Shown here piece by piece: positions 33,298 through 38,780 of a stretch of 38,780 nt of DNA. Origin of the DNA: Acetobacter sp. AN02 (lineage in GTDB: Bacteria > Pseudomonadota > Alphaproteobacteria > Acetobacterales > Acetobacteraceae); the NCBI RefSeq assembly GCF_029759835.1, contig NZ_JAJJND010000015.1:1-38780 (forward strand). Reading direction: 5' to 3'. Both the position numbers and the translations under genes were made by a program. The stretch's first letter is position 1. Each line of letters opens with the position of its first letter. The notes under the pieces were generated by a model, which saw nothing but the letters and a program-made list of their open reading frames with translations, made no database searches and was not told the DNA's origin.

Positions 33298-33327
33298 CGC
33301 CGCTCTCTCCGGAGGGCGGCGTTTTTT
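33298..33327 (+). terminator. Rho-independent terminator of infC
   Basis: CGCCGC (33298-33303) pairs with GCGGCG (33316-33321), with inner CTCC/GGAG pairing in the loop, followed by six T residues (33322-33327). It reaches into the stop codon of the convergent acoR-like gene. Confidence 0.85.
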
Positions 33328-34267
33328 ATTGCGGTTCTTCCGGGGATGTCGCGCTCATGGCTTTTATCTTGCGGTGCAGGGTTGAGCGGCTGATGCCGAG
33401 CAGTCTGGCTGCAGGGGTGATCTTGCCCTGAGACATGGCGAGCGCGCCTTCTATCACGCTGCGTTCGGCCTCCCGGAAATCGGGGATGCCGGCGGCCTGT
33501 GCGCTCAGATCGAAGCTGACGCCTGAGGTGTCTCCTTCCGGCAGGTTCAGCTTTTTTCTCGCGGCCTGCGTGGCTCCGACGATCACACGCGATTCATCGA
33601 GCGCCACCATGGGCAGGGAGATGTCGTCTCCGTCGCCCAGCATCACCACGGTCCGGTTATGGAAGGCTTCGAGGAAGCTTCTGCGTTCCAGTCTGCGGGC
33701 TGCATCGATCAGCACGGCTTCCATCATTGTTCCGACGCGTCCTGTGGGATCGGGGCGTGTGGAGCTTGCGTCCAGCGTTCCTGCGACTTTTCCGTCCGGT
33801 CCGTAGAACGGGACAGCCGTGCAGGTGAGATAGCGCAGGTTCAGCCGCCAGTGATGGTCCATATGGACCGTGACGGGCCGCTCTTCCCTCAGTGATGTTC
33901 CGACCCCGTTTGTCCCGACGAGATCCTCTCCCCATCGGGCGCCGGGCCAGAGATGCCATCTCCGGCAGCCTTTCTCGAACGGGGCATCTCCGCGACGCGA
34001 CACGATGATGCCGTCCGGGTTGGCCAGAAGCACGGTGTAGTCCAGGTTCGAGACGATCCCGTGCAGTCTGTCGAGTTCGGGGTCCGTTGCCTTCATCATG
34101 CTGCCCATCTGCTCCCGGACCTGGCGCAGTTCTGCCGGGCACAGCAGCTCTTCGAGCATCCGTCCGCCGGAATCGATCCCGTATGCATCGGCGCATCGCA
34201 GCCATGAGGAGCGGAGCCGCTGCGGAATCGCTGCGAGCTGATCGTTGCTGACCGGTCCTGAAGCCAT
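33326..34267 (-). CDS. AcoR-like regulator lacking the sigma-54 AAA+ domain
   Basis: A 313-residue regulator. The N-terminal two thirds match AcoR: RSSWLRCADAYGID, then a GAF sensor domain (HGIVSNLDYTVLLANPDGIIV, GARWGEDLVGTNGVGTSL, VTVHMDHHWRLNLRYLTCTAVPFYGPDGKVAGTLD). The C terminus is a Fis-type helix-turn-helix (EGALAMSQGKITPAARLLGISRSTLHRKI). Typical AcoR proteins are about twice this length and carry a GAFTGA-containing AAA+ domain between these parts; none is present here. It is divergent from acoABC, so it probably senses acetoin or a related metabolite and controls that operon without sigma-54. Confidence 0.85.
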   Translation of the reverse strand: MASGPVSNDQLAAIPQRLRSSWLRCADAYGIDSGGRMLEELLCPAELRQVREQMGSMMKATDPELDRLHGIVSNLDYTVLLANPDGIIVSRRGDAPFEKGCRRWHLWPGARWGEDLVGTNGVGTSLREERPVTVHMDHHWRLNLRYLTCTAVPFYGPDGKVAGTLDASSTRPDPTGRVGTMMEAVLIDAARRLERRSFLEAFHNRTVVMLGDGDDISLPMVALDESRVIVGATQAARKKLNLPEGDTSGVSFDLSAQAAGIPDFREAERSVIEGALAMSQGKITPAARLLGISRSTLHRKIKAMSATSPEEPQ

Positions 34268-34503
34268 TGCCTGTCTCCATGAGGATGAGCGGATATGTGC
34301 GCGGATTATACGCGGGATCAGTAACTGTTATGCGCCACATCTGCGACAGTCTGCCCCCGGGCGTTTCACATGGGCGTGACCATATCCTTACGCATGCTTT
34401 ACGCCTCCGTGTGGCTGACGCTTCCTGAGGGCGTACGAGGCGGTGGCCGGATGGTTTTTCCGGATGTCGCCTCCGGTGTTCAGACATTCCGGAGAAGAAA
34501 AAG
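34268..34503. promoter_or_regulatory. Divergent acoR-acoA control region
   Basis: This 236-base spacer must carry both promoters. I find no convincing -24/-12 sigma-54 element (TGGC-N8-TTGC); the nearest, TGGCTGACGCTTCC around 34414, lacks the TTGC part. That fits the missing AAA+ domain in the regulator. Individual operators could not be assigned. The acoA Shine-Dalgarno GGAGAAG lies just before 34504. Confidence 0.45.
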
Positions 34504-35469
34504 ATGCAGATCCCACGGGAAGTTCTTCTGCGCTCCTATCGCGCCATGCGGACCATTCGTGATTTTGAGGAGCGCCTTCATGTCGAGTTCGCGACGGGCG
34601 AGATTCCGGGCTTCGTACACCTTTACTGCGGTGAGGAAGCGTCCGGCGTCGGTGTCTGTTCGCATCTGAAGGACACGGACACCATTGCGAGCACGCATCG
34701 CGGACACGGGCATTGCATTGCCAAGGGTGTCGGCGTGGATGGCATGATGGCTGAGATTTATGGCCGCAGCACCGGTGTCTGCCGTGGCAAGGGCGGATCG
34801 ATGCATATTGCCGATCTTTCCCTTGGCATGCTCGGGGCGAACGGCATTGTCGGTGGCGGGCCGCCGCTGATCTGCGGTGCGGCGCTGTCTCATAAGGTGC
34901 TCAAGGATGGGGGTGTTGCTGTCGCGTTTTATGGTGACGGTGCGTCCAACGAGGGCACGACGCTTGAGAGTCTGAATCTGGCTTCGGTCTGGAATCTTCC
35001 TGCTGTCTTCGTTGTTGAGGATAACGGCTATGGCGAGGCGACGGCGTCTTCCTATGCCTGTGCGGGGACGCAGAAGGATCGGGCGGCCGGTTTCGGTATT
35101 CCTTATTTTGAGTGTGACGGCACTGACTTCTTTGCGGTTCACGAGACGGCCGGCGAGGCAATTGCCCATGCGCGTGCCGGCAAGGGACCGGCCATGGTCC
35201 ATGTGCATCTGTCGCGCTGGTATGGCCATTTCGAGGGCGATGCGATGACCTATCGCGCGAATGGCGAGGTGGCGAAGGAGCGGGCCGAGCAGGACTGCCT
35301 GAAGAAATTCCGTGAGAAAGTCACTGAAATCAGCCTGCTGGATTCTGCCAGTCTTGATGAGATTGACGCCAGTGTCCGCGATGAGATCGAGCAGGCTGTC
35401 ATTAAGGCCAAGGCTGCGCCGCTGCCTGAGCCGGAAGCTCTCATGCAGGATGTCTATGTCAGCTACTGA
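34504..35469 (+). CDS. acoA: Acetoin dehydrogenase E1 component, alpha subunit
   Basis: With AcoB forms the thiamine-diphosphate E1 enzyme that cleaves acetoin to acetaldehyde and passes the acetyl unit to lipoate. The 321-residue protein has STHRGHGHCIAKG, GRSTGVCRGKGGSMHI, and the ThDP motif GDGASNEGTTLESLNLA ... VVEDN. The GRSTG-C-GKGGSMH segment is typical of E1-alpha proteins. The assignment to acetoin rather than pyruvate follows from the AcoC-type E2 with its hydrolase domain two genes downstream. Confidence 0.88.
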   Translation: MQIPREVLLRSYRAMRTIRDFEERLHVEFATGEIPGFVHLYCGEEASGVGVCSHLKDTDTIASTHRGHGHCIAKGVGVDGMMAEIYGRSTGVCRGKGGSMHIADLSLGMLGANGIVGGGPPLICGAALSHKVLKDGGVAVAFYGDGASNEGTTLESLNLASVWNLPAVFVVEDNGYGEATASSYACAGTQKDRAAGFGIPYFECDGTDFFAVHETAGEAIAHARAGKGPAMVHVHLSRWYGHFEGDAMTYRANGEVAKERAEQDCLKKFREKVTEISLLDSASLDEIDASVRDEIEQAVIKAKAAPLPEPEALMQDVYVSY

Positions 35470-35515
35470 GCGGGCTTTCATCTTTTTTCAGACAACGAAA
35501 CGGAACAGTTAAGCC

Positions 35516-36544
35516 ATGTCGAAGAAGAGTTTTCGCCAGGCCATCAATGAGGCCCTGCGTCAGGAAATGCGCCGTGATCCGCGTGTCATTCTCATGGGTG
35601 AGGATGTCGCGGGCGGTCAGGGCGGCAGTGCGGATAATCCGGATGCCTGGGGCGGTGTGCTCGGGGTGACCAAGGGGCTTTATACGGAATTCGGTGCGGA
35701 GCGTGTGTTTGATACGCCCATCAGCGAGGCGTCCTATATCGGGGCTGCGGCCGGTGCGGCGGCCACGGGTCTGCGGCCTGTTGCCGAGCTGATGTTTGTG
35801 GATTTCATCGGCTCCTGTCTTGATCAGGTAATGAACCAGGCGGCCAAGTTCCGCTATATGTTCGGCGGAAAGGCGCGCACTCCGCTGGTGATCCGGGCGA
35901 TGTATGGCGCGGGGTTCTCGGCTGCGGCCCAGCACAGCCAGGCGCTCTATCCCCTTTTCACGCATATTCCCGGTCTGAAGGTTGTCATTCCCTCCTCTCC
36001 CTATGAGGCCAAGGGGCTTCTGATCGAGGCGATCCGGGATGATGATCCTGTGATCTTCCTTGAGAACAAGGTGATGTATGACGATGAGGAGGATGTTCCT
36101 GATGATTCGTACACCATCCCCTTCGGTGAGGCGAACCTGACGCGTGAGGGGGATGACGTTACGATTGTCGCCTTCGGCCGGATGGTGAATTTTGCCAACC
36201 AGGCGGCGGATCGTCTGGAGAAGGAGGGTATTACCTGCACGGTGATTGATCCGCGCACGACCTCTCCTCTGGACACCGGGACGATCCTGGACTGCGTTGC
36301 CGAGACCGGGCGTCTTGTGATCGTTGATGAGTCCAGCCCGCGCTGCAACATGGCCACTGATGTTGCGGCTCTGGTGGCTGAGGAGGCGTTTGATGCCCTT
36401 AAGGCACCGATCCGTCGTGTGACGCCGCCGCATACGCCGGTTCCGTTCGCTTCGGTTCTCGAAAATCTCTACATGCCCGATCCGGCGCGGATTGAAGCCG
36501 CCGTGAAGTCGGTCATGGGTTACAAAGCAAAGCAGGAGGCCTGA
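35516..36544 (+). CDS. acoB: Acetoin dehydrogenase E1 component, beta subunit
   Basis: Beta half of the E1 heterotetramer. The 342-residue protein shows FRQAINEALRQEMRRDPRVILMGEDVAGGQGG, GAERVFDTPISEASYIGAAAGAAATGLRPVAELMF and the C-terminal transketolase domain with VIDPRTTSPLDTGTILDCV and the FASVLENLYMPD end. It lies 46 bases after acoA and three bases before acoC, so the three are one operon. Confidence 0.9.
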   Translation: MSKKSFRQAINEALRQEMRRDPRVILMGEDVAGGQGGSADNPDAWGGVLGVTKGLYTEFGAERVFDTPISEASYIGAAAGAAATGLRPVAELMFVDFIGSCLDQVMNQAAKFRYMFGGKARTPLVIRAMYGAGFSAAAQHSQALYPLFTHIPGLKVVIPSSPYEAKGLLIEAIRDDDPVIFLENKVMYDDEEDVPDDSYTIPFGEANLTREGDDVTIVAFGRMVNFANQAADRLEKEGITCTVIDPRTTSPLDTGTILDCVAETGRLVIVDESSPRCNMATDVAALVAEEAFDALKAPIRRVTPPHTPVPFASVLENLYMPDPARIEAAVKSVMGYKAKQEA

Positions 36545-36547
36545 TAC

Positions 36548-37678
36548 ATGGCCGGTACCATTACGCCCGTCACCATGCCGAAATTCGGCCTCGCCATGAC
36601 GGAAGGCAAGCTTGCGGACTGGCTGGTCAGCCCCGGCGACGCGGTGACTGCCGGTCAGGAGCTTGCCGAGATCGAGACGACCAAGATCACGAACGTCTAT
36701 GAAAGTCCTGCTGCCGGTACGCTGCGCCGGCAGGTGGCTCCGGCGGGTGAGACCCTTCCGGTCGGTGCGCTGCTTGGCGTTCTGGCCGGAAGCGATGTTT
36801 CCGATGCGGAGATCGATGCCTTTATTGAGAAGTTTCAGAGCGAGTTTGTTGCCGGTGATGAGGACGGGGCTGATGAGGCCTCATCCGAGCCTGAGATGCT
36901 TGATGTCGGCACCCGGCGTCTTCGCGTTCAGGACACGGGGGCACGCGATGCGGGTGTTCCGCTGCTGCTGATTCATGGTTTTGGCGGCGATCTAACGAAC
37001 TGGATGCTCAACCAGGGCGATCTGTCCGGCACGACGCGGGTGATTACTTTCGATCTGCCCGGGCATGGTGAGTCCACGAAGGATGTGGGGGACGGCACGC
37101 CTGCGATGCTGGCGGCTGTTGCCCGGGATCTTCTGGATGCTCTCGGGATAGACCGCGCTCATATCGGCGGTCATTCGATGGGCGGGGCGGTTGCGCTTGA
37201 GCTTGCCAGGCTTGCGCCTGAGCGGGTGGCGTCCCTTTCCCTGATTGCTCCGGCTGGTCTGGGGAAAACGATCAATCAGGAGTTTATCGACGGTTTTATC
37301 ACGGCTGATCGTCGCAAGACCTTGGAGCCGGTTCTGCAGCTTCTGGTTCATGACAAGGGGCTTGTCTCACGGCAGATGGTTGAGGGCATTATCCGCTTCA
37401 AGCGTCTGGACGGTGCCGTTGCTGGCCTGACCACACTGGCGAAGGCAAGTTTCGAGAACGGGCAGCAGAAGGAAAATCTTCGTCCGCTTCTCGAGGCTTA
37501 CAAAGGGCCGGTTCAGGTTCTGTGGGGAGCTGAGGACGAGATCCTTCCCGTCAGCGGGAGCGAGGGTCTGCCTTCGGAGGTTCCTGTCAGCATTTTCCCC
37601 GGCACGGGACATATGCCGCAGCTGGAAAAGGCGGCTGAGATCAATGCAAAGCTGAAGGATTTTGCTGCGAAATCCTGA
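36548..37678 (+). CDS. acoC: Acetoin dehydrogenase E2: lipoyl domain fused to alpha/beta hydrolase
   Basis: Accepts the acetyl group from E1 and transfers it to CoA. The 376-residue protein starts with one lipoyl domain (1-80) whose lysine is K46 in EIETTKITN. An acidic linker (DEDGADEASSEPE) leads to an alpha/beta-hydrolase-type domain with HGFGGD, nucleophile S210 in GGHSMGGAVALEL, acidic residue in LWGAEDEILP and histidine in GTGHMPQLE. This lipoyl-hydrolase fusion is the AcoC hallmark, unlike ordinary pyruvate dehydrogenase E2. No dihydrolipoamide dehydrogenase (E3) gene follows; E3 must come from elsewhere. Confidence 0.9.
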   Translation: MAGTITPVTMPKFGLAMTEGKLADWLVSPGDAVTAGQELAEIETTKITNVYESPAAGTLRRQVAPAGETLPVGALLGVLAGSDVSDAEIDAFIEKFQSEFVAGDEDGADEASSEPEMLDVGTRRLRVQDTGARDAGVPLLLIHGFGGDLTNWMLNQGDLSGTTRVITFDLPGHGESTKDVGDGTPAMLAAVARDLLDALGIDRAHIGGHSMGGAVALELARLAPERVASLSLIAPAGLGKTINQEFIDGFITADRRKTLEPVLQLLVHDKGLVSRQMVEGIIRFKRLDGAVAGLTTLAKASFENGQQKENLRPLLEAYKGPVQVLWGAEDEILPVSGSEGLPSEVPVSIFPGTGHMPQLEKAAEINAKLKDFAAKS

Positions 37679-37964
37679 GGGCTGCCGCTACCTGCGACGT
37701 TCCGGGCTTTCAGGGCCGGAGCGTTGCGGGGCTGGCGGTTGTCTGAAGTTCATGGATTCTACCGGAATTTCTGATTCTTATGTAATTTCTTCTTAAATTT
37801 TATGAATATTTTCAAAATTATATAAAAGATAAGTTATTATATTTCCTCACCAACATAAAAATTAAATACAAAATAAATAATCTAGATTTTTTCAATTTAA
37901 GATAATGTTTTAATCTCCATTTTTGTAAAATTATACATAAATTGGTTAAAGGAAATTTTCTATA
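37679..37964. other. Junction into an AT-rich island
   Basis: After acoC a short GC-rich stretch (to about 37745) can form an imperfect hairpin around CGTTCCGG / CCGGAGCG. From about 37750 the sequence becomes strongly AT-rich, with many stops in all frames, and no coding is visible until the remnant gene ending at 37965. The sharp change in composition marks the edge of acquired DNA. Confidence 0.7.
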
Positions 37965-38332
37965 TCAATTTTTACTTAAATACAAATCCCACTGCATATT
38001 TTTATAAAATTGAAACGAGATTACGTTTGAATTCTTTATAAAGGCATTAGAAAAAAAATCCCCTCCTATCGCCACATGTGGATAGATACCAATTTCTCCC
38101 AATATAATTGAATCTATTATATTATTTTTTTTGATATCAATCAGGTATATATAAAGAAGGGTATCAAAGTCATCATATGTTAAAAATATAATATTTTTCC
38201 CCCACCACTTAACACAACATTCTACTTTATTTCCAAATACCTCTATATTTTCTACACCGCCGATGACAGAAACATAAATTTTATCTACTCCCCCGGACTG
38301 ACCGAAATAGATTTAATATTTATTTCTTTCAT
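37965..38332 (-). pseudogene. Frameshifted immunity-like small protein gene
   Basis: Two adjacent open frames read as one ~122-residue protein if one base is added in the five-G run at 38290-38294. Frame one starts at ATG 38332 (MKEINIKSISVSPGE, stop at 38285-38287), with AGGA nine bases upstream. Frame two takes over at GGVDKIYVSVIGG, runs for ~107 codons without any start codon near its beginning, and ends at 37965 (NMQWDLYLSKN). It is acidic/aromatic, with no signal peptide. Codon use is strongly AT-biased. Size, composition and position just downstream of a glycine-rich C terminus suggest an immunity protein, but I recognise no family. It may be a pseudogene, a slippage-switched gene or a sequencing error. 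Confidence 0.6.
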
Positions 38333-38343
38333 ATCGAGTTATC

Positions 38344-38500
38344 CTACAACCATAAAAATTGTGTTGTATATTCATACAGAGAAGATGATAACTTTCCACC
38401 AGCCAAACCACCTGCGGCGCCTAACCCAATTCCACCGAAAATACCTCCGACAAGACAAGCTCCCGCCTCAGTAAATTCACCTACCACGGGAATAACTAGC
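38344..38500 (-). pseudogene. 3' end of a glycine-zipper protein, cut by an IS element
   Basis: Read on the minus strand, an open frame runs from the IS edge to TAG at 38344-38346. It encodes about 51 residues: VIPVVGEFTEAGACLV, then the glycine zipper GGIFGGIGLGAAGGLAGG, and SSSLYEYTTQFLWL at the end. Such GxxxG-rich membrane segments occur in toxins, effectors and bacteriocins. The stop codon lies 11 bases before the ATG of the immunity-like gene. The upstream (5') part is missing from this side of the insertion, so the protein family cannot be named. Confidence 0.55.
38495..38500. repeat. One copy of the IS target site (ACTAGC)
   Basis: The six bases next to the element are ACTAGC, matching the NCTAGN target described for IS481 of Bordetella pertussis, which gives 6-bp duplications. 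The second copy would lie past the window end. The TAG stop of the transposase is inside this site. Confidence 0.6.
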
Positions 38501-38780
38501 TGTTTGGTCCCGGAATTTGATGGTGCGGATTATGTATGAACCTTGATGGTTCTTTTTCCCATTGCTGACAAATGAATTCGTATGGCGTGAGGCCGCGCAG
38601 GGTCTTGAGCCTGCGGGCGAAATTGCAGGCGGCAACGCAGTCAGCGAGGTGTTGACGCAACTGGTCATGCGTTTCGTAGTAGAAACGCTTGACGGTGGCG
38701 TCCTTGATCGTGCGGTTCATCCTCTCGACCTGGCCATTCGTCCAGGGATGTCGCGGCTTTGTCAGCCGATGCTCGATATC
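38496..38780 (-). CDS. IS481-family transposase, C-terminal part
   Basis: The last 94 codons of a DDE transposase; the N-terminal part lies beyond the window. It begins in frame with the integrase-core segment DIEHRLTKPRHPWTNGQVERMNRTIK, where the glutamate of NGQVE is the last residue of the DDE triad. It continues with VKRFYYETHDQLRQHLADCVAACNFARRLKTLRGLTPYEFI and ends at HQIPGPN plus one residue. The stop TAG (38496-38498) is outside the inverted repeat and is supplied by the target site. The usual AAYNFARRLK is AACNFARRLK here. Confidence 0.88.
   Translation of the reverse strand, partial: DIEHRLTKPRHPWTNGQVERMNRTIKDATVKRFYYETHDQLRQHLADCVAACNFARRLKTLRGLTPYEFICQQWEKEPSRFIHNPHHQIPGPNS
38501..38780 (-). 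mobile_element. IS481-family insertion sequence, 3' part (runs off the window)
   Basis: The element edge is placed at 38501, where TGTTTGGTCCCGGAA begins; IS481-type inverted repeats begin with TGT. The transposase gene fills the rest to the end of the window. The other end of the element is not visible. Confidence 0.75.

Follow-up and report, generated by a model that had tools for sequence, protein, structure and literature searches.

The stretch of DNA analyzed here (the window; 38,780 nt from Acetobacter sp. AN02) ends in an AT-rich island (positions 37760..38499, no strand assigned) with a G+C content of 29%, compared with 59% for the window. The island adjoins a region (33326-37678) that, by eye, we take to be an acetoin dehydrogenase cluster and its regulator. 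Two gene remnants lie in the island on the minus strand. Gene 1 (38344..38499) consists of the last 51 codons and the stop codon of a gene that, judging from homology and zipper motifs, encoded a glycine-zipper effector-like protein. Gene 2 (37965..38332), whose frame is broken, is a candidate immunity gene, defined by its start and stop codons, its homology to sequences of genus g40 and the gene order in its relatives. A first-pass annotation, made from the letters alone, had placed a minus-strand frame ending in a glycine zipper in this AT-rich end and had called its composition foreign; the coordinates of the frame and the difference in G+C content agree with that description.

As also proposed in that annotation, gene 1 is truncated by an insertion sequence. 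It is interrupted by the end of an IS481-family element (38501..38780, minus strand), whose transposase C-terminus matches NF033577 (E 2.2e-24, partial) and rve_3 (E 9.3e-12). The terminal repeat of the element stops at 38501, and the contig runs out inside the element. The adjoining GCTAGT (38495..38500, minus strand) is a probable copy of the target site: the target preference of IS481 is NCTAGN, and CTAG-like sequences are present in most flanks of the other copies. The element end shares 95% identity with part of a plasmid from Gluconacetobacter diazotrophicus. In the host genome, terminal repeats of several related IS481-type elements occur at 21 places, many of them at contig ends, and the assembly is probably fragmented because of them. 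ACTAGC, the expected partner of GCTAGT, is found on the outer flank at 0 of these 21 places, and searches of the host genome with a relative's protein and with the family profile gave no further match for the 5' part of gene 1.

The gene-1 frame occupies codons 38499-38347 outside the insertion sequence, includes GGIFGGIGLGAAGGLAGG and ends with a TAG at 38346-38344. The encoded piece contains six glycine-zipper motifs, while shuffled sequences contain 1.03 on average and only 1 of 1000 shuffles equals this number. The GxxxG motifs are repeated in a hydrophobic C-terminal stretch, the feature by which we recognize a candidate glycine-zipper membrane toxin. We scanned one genome per species (84,980 genomes by the tool's description) for relatives, and 3 of the 114 pattern matches were confirmed: L048 from a Rhodospirillales MAG, L049 from a Sphingomonadales MAG (75% identity) and L050 from Collimonas sp. 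OK412 (60%). These relatives are proteins of 254-299 aa that end within a few residues of the end of the window frame, share IPVVGE[IF]TExGA, and show a hydrophobic stretch followed by glycine-rich, zipper-bearing stretches. A profile of L048-L050, from which the window is left out, ranks the gene-1 piece first of 714 frames (E 5.6e-9), and its score against each of the three proteins is reached by 0 of 1000 shuffles. Since 51 of 254-299 residues are kept, the island holds approximately the last fifth to sixth of gene 1. Zipper motifs also exceed those of shuffles in L050 and L049 (both 0/1000), L048 (2/1000), L084 and L123, and are not significant in L121 and L118.

Searched against 397 genomes from the family of the host, the 51-residue piece finds a match at E <= 1 in 197. 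The single convincing match outside the host genome is in G294 (E 8.6e-6); the remaining 195 do no better than E 8.7e-4, which fits a glycine-rich query. Aligned with the C-terminus of this protein (G294/L048), the piece is 57% identical across 37 aa, and when the G294 protein is searched back in the host genome, the gene-1 piece is the sole match (E 9.3e-5). The other gene-1 matches among the loci listed look, by eye, unrelated or out of frame and were set aside. In a sample of 398 genomes of the phylum, the L035 protein is matched in the host genome only. We also observed N-terminal matches to the toxin family in GC-rich genomes of the same family, at L116, L117 and L118 (G028, G069 and G078; E 3.7e-10, 1.3e-9 and 6.5e-7, respectively). 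No named or curated family of Pfam or NCBIfam is matched over its cut-off by the gene-1 piece or by its relatives; for Gly-zipper_Omp (PF13488; cut-off 25 bits), L050 reaches 16.5 bits and the gene-1 piece gives no match. A four-row alignment yields a poor AlphaFold model of the Collimonas toxin (mean pLDDT 38.5).

The surroundings of one relative hint at a delivered effector. The Collimonas gene adjoins, divergently, genes for VgrG (Phage_GPD, E 4.2e-90) and a DUF2169 protein (E 4.2e-55), and type VI delivery of this relative is a plausible to likely reading. Near L048 and L049, no type VI secretion genes were recognized by eye within up to 4 kb. With relatives that are effector-like and one that lies beside VgrG and DUF2169, the missing 5' part of gene 1 does not look like an unrelated housekeeping gene, the outcome that would have spoken against the first-pass annotation. 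Downstream of L048-L050 lies a small gene that is common to all three and different from gene 2; the L048 copy scores just under the cut-off of bPH_6 (21 versus 22 bits), and the L049 and L050 copies give no such match.

Gene 2 starts with an ATG at 38332-38330, 11 bases past the gene-1 stop, and an AGGA overlaps that stop, so the second start with its own ribosome site is where it had been reported. Its first frame comprises 15 codons and a stop at 38287-38285, and the remainder lies in another frame that is open from 38312 to 37965. Because these two frames overlap, the frameshift noted earlier can be placed within 38312-38285, next to a short homopolymer run, and it may reflect a sequencing error. 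The first match to gene 2 came from G320, of genus g40 (E 0.006 among 397 genomes, not significant alone). A three-row profile then finds 13 places in five of the nine g40 genomes, and a twelve-row profile finds 18 places in 7 of 382 same-family genomes, from 2 of 102 genera; in this count, sequences that built the profile necessarily match, and some places are fragments of a single broken gene. The seven genomes are the host genome and six of genus g40.

We confirmed the membership of gene 2 with profiles that exclude the window. With filters off, gene 2 takes first place among 714 frames under the profiles of six (E 3.1e-8) and eleven relatives (E 2.8e-5), and no other frame scores below E 3; under default filters, the eleven-relative profile reports nothing in the window. 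In pairwise comparisons, gene 2 beats all 500 shuffles with four of the eleven relatives and does not with the other seven, at identities of 19-31%, some of them across short aligned stretches. These results indicate that the family is divergent and that gene 2 is close to only part of it. A single-sequence AlphaFold model predicts the gene-2 piece to be all-beta and apparently soluble, with poor confidence (mean pLDDT 51.3). Searches of named families, including PHROG and PADLOC, give nothing over cut-off for gene 2 and its relatives, which, together with the results for gene 1, matches the first annotator's failure to recognize a family for either. A sequence search of the PDB returns nothing for the gene-2 piece and E-values of 0.29 or weaker for both family profiles.

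Both families meet again in genus g40, which may resemble Commensalibacter; its genomes measure 1.9-2.6 Mb, and the loci considered here have 31-39% G+C. The sole hit of toxin profile A3 in the nine g40 genomes is at G299:C6 (E 3.2e-4), immediately upstream of two gene-2 relatives. Toxin profile A6, which includes the window piece, finds 13 places in 9 of 382 genomes. In five loci (the window, G299:C6, G299:C4, G299:C17 and G246:C1), a toxin place lies upstream of a gene-2 place on one strand, compared with about 1e-4 adjacencies expected by chance, assuming a mean genome of 4 Mb. A candidate effector gene directly followed by a small same-strand partner is thus conserved across genomes, in the window and in four loci of G299 and G246. 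At G299:C4, both genes are open and 2 bases apart, and this locus is a member of neither profile; the intact pair that had been sought in other Acetobacteraceae therefore exists. Of the other loci, G246:C1 has a broken toxin gene and G299:C17 is broken in both genes. The G299:C17 contig (L086, 6852 bases) carries a Rep_3 initiator and a phage-type integrase near the broken pair, which suggests that it is a plasmid.

The link between the window and the g40 toxins was also examined without the window sequence. Among 564 frames from 14 g40 loci, the profile of L048-L050 alone ranks the toxins of G299:C6, G246:C1 and G299:C2 first to third (E 1.4e-6, 6.9e-4 and 4.2e-3, respectively), and the G299:C4 toxin is absent from these results. 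Pairwise, the G299:C4 toxin beats all 400 shuffles with L050 and does not with L049 or L048. Between the C-terminal piece of the window and the C-terminal ends of L118 and the g40 toxins, similarity does not stand out from chance, as 63 to 642 of 1000 shuffles score at least equally well. What ties the window to g40 is therefore the N-terminal domain shared within the family, together with gene 2.

The recurring order bears on whether the two genes are merely accidental neighbors, that is, whether insertion sequences joined part of an effector gene to some unrelated small gene. Both genes of the window are broken beside an insertion sequence, a different gene lies downstream in L048-L050, and most gene-2 copies are solitary, as accidental joining would predict. 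However, the 11-base spacing, the ribosome site overlapping the stop and the recurrence of the order at four further loci, spread over two genomes from a different genus, argue against it, and we regard an accidental origin of the pair as quite unlikely.

The gene-2 family also shows the traits of an orphan immunity family, with toxin-less and tandem copies. At 12 of the 18 gene-2 places, no toxin match is found upstream within 1.2 kb, and some orphan copies share a housekeeping site across two or three genomes. One such site is presumably beside the ornithine carbamoyltransferase gene, with a gene-2 copy in G040, in G276 and, shortened, in G299; another, by our assignment, is beside purD in G276 and G299. 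Two copies lie close together in G320 and two in tandem at G299:C6. In G320, a 102-aa gene (L032:17181-17489) without a Pfam match stands ahead of both copies and may be another remnant. We considered whether the G276 orphan near a pyrophosphatase gene occupies the exact site of the G299:C6 cassette and rejected this, since the two lie on opposite sides of that gene.

In three g40 cassettes, the toxin gene is immediately preceded by a member of the phage neck-terminator family (PF23961/NF047498) (G299:C4, E 1.9e-11; G299:C2, E 2.8e-10; G246:C1, E 6.3e-12, all to PF23961), and the G299:C4 protein also exceeds the cut-off of NF047498. In the fourth cassette, G299:C6, this gene by eye looks split in two, and its longer piece gives no match to the model. 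No other phage structural genes were recognized by eye in the lists of open reading frames around the g40 cassettes. Distant relatives of the neck protein turn up in 11 phage records, of which Aeromonas accounts for 9. At G299:C2 (L123:713-2972), the neck terminator and the toxin-family gene are followed by a two-copy DUF7079 gene (E 8.5e-45), and DUF7079 is a candidate for another immunity family. Counting gene 2, the small gene of L048-L050 and DUF7079, the toxin family therefore has at least three kinds of downstream gene. In G246, a 751-aa protein with a Hint_2 match (L093:1945-4200, E 1.3e-32) is encoded approximately 0.85 kb upstream of the cassette.

The neck terminator raises the question of whether the window pair is a phage remnant, in which gene 1 would have served in the tail or in lysis, as a tape-measure- or holin-like protein, gene 2 would be a phage accessory, and no rival would be killed. 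This reading could also draw on weak PHROG matches of the Collimonas protein (endolysin, E 4.5e-5; tape measure, E 0.014; tail lysin, E 0.019) and on a match of the G246 piece to Phage_TTP_14 (E 0.031). However, the weak phage-family matches fall mostly in the glycine-rich half, it is VgrG and not a phage tail operon that adjoins the Collimonas gene, and gene-2 copies persist alone at housekeeping sites. Moreover, four scans of IMG/VR gave pattern matches with no relative confirmed, and phage records searched with the G299 toxin gave no match. We therefore consider this phage-remnant reading of the pair unlikely. Plasmid records searched with five protein queries likewise gave no match.

A rather different alternative is that the two genes form an intracellular toxin-antitoxin or abortive-infection pair, as the side-by-side position of two short genes in a foreign island might suggest. 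The G299:C2 relative of the toxin (L123:1342-2211) has a weak match to PDC-M62A of PADLOC (E 3.1e-4, 17.9 bits). However, no known toxin-antitoxin family of Pfam or NCBIfam is matched by the window genes or their relatives, VgrG adjoins one relative, and the partner genes are found as tandem copies and also as orphans, which together make an intracellular pair highly improbable.

Homologs of both genes, whose absence would have spoken against the first-pass annotation, their pairing and order in g40, and their breakage in the window lead us to read the pair as a dead effector-immunity cassette, consisting of a glycine-zipper toxin and its immunity protein, with a probability of roughly two in three; toxicity and protection are what we infer from these observations. 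Of the earlier proposal of a toxin or bacteriocin-like protein followed by its immunity gene, the pairing thus stands, and the toxin is better explained as a delivered effector than as a bacteriocin released on its own. The cassette would have been acquired from elsewhere. Gene 1 would once have encoded approximately 250-350 aa, with the family-wide N-terminal domain followed by the hydrophobic C-terminal glycine-zipper region. A phage-tail-like machine would carry the toxin into a rival, where the zipper region may enter the inner membrane and oligomerize through its glycine faces, so that the membrane potential collapses. Gene 2, probably co-transcribed, would encode a small, probably soluble, beta-rich protein that binds the toxin and protects the producer. 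The IS481-type element now separates roughly the final fifth of gene 1 from the remainder, which the assembly lacks. Since gene 1 is split and gene 2 has lost its frame, both are probably inactive. Immunity to membrane toxins is often provided by membrane proteins, whereas gene 2 is modeled as soluble, a counterpoint to the effector-immunity reading.

The delivery machine is the part of the effector-immunity reading for which the genomes give a mixed picture. TssC/VipB has no match in the host genome (99.98% complete), and VipB has none in G299, despite three cassettes with an open toxin frame there; two of the nine g40 genomes, G246 and G040, do have a VipB match. A bolder version, which we advance as speculation and think improbable, is a mobile three-gene weapon cassette, apart from prophages and type VI loci, in which a neck terminator acting as a toxin-loading adaptor is followed by a glycine-zipper toxin and an exchangeable small immunity gene, with immunity families swapped. 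If so, the lone neck terminator would load the toxin onto tail-like particles (resident phages, tailocins or the type VI tube), these cassettes and the VgrG-linked loci would share the toxin family, and gene 2, the small gene of L048-L050 and DUF7079 would be interchanged between cassettes.

Two families that our scans of Pfam and NCBIfam left unnamed are now joined as a probable pair of toxin and immunity protein, and a different genus of the host family holds pairs whose frames are open. Because g40 keeps many toxin-less copies of the partner, it offers a natural test of whether orphan immunity shapes competition, and the neck-terminator gene that heads the cassettes hints that toxin delivery is connected with phage tails. 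In the titles and abstract openings searched, we found no description of either family, and nothing on DUF7079 or on a link between a neck terminator and a toxin.

We compared the pair with known systems. The type VI secretion effectors of the BTH_I2691 family (NF041559) are weakly similar to the C-terminus of the G299:C2 toxin (E 0.025), a match that is far under the curated cut-off, is given by a single toxin out of four scanned and leaves the N-terminus uncovered. In Vibrio cholerae, according to the accessible portion of PMC5361080, orphan immunity arrays arise where effectors are displaced and immunity genes remain. The VgrG-linked type VI pairs described in that portion resemble the present family, which likewise has VgrG and DUF2169 beside the Collimonas relative and has tandem and orphan partners; unlike them, the host and G299 are without a VipB match, and the cassettes are scattered single loci. 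For the glycine-zipper toxin EsxX, the available part of PMC12744356 reports that it depolarizes the membrane, that a soluble immunity protein binds its zipper, and that both membrane and soluble immunity proteins are described for a zipper toxin. As far as that part describes it, EsxX differs from gene 1 in being a type VII secretion LXG protein of a Gram-positive bacterium, and ExiAB is alpha/beta, whereas gene 2 is predicted to be all-beta (PMC12744356). By analogy with this system, gene 1 would be a membrane-depolarizing toxin and gene 2 its soluble neutralizer. The window pair is like EsxX/ExiAB/ExiCD, in the features given in the same excerpt of PMC12744356, in its C-terminal extended glycine zipper, its adjacent soluble partner and its orphan immunity genes.
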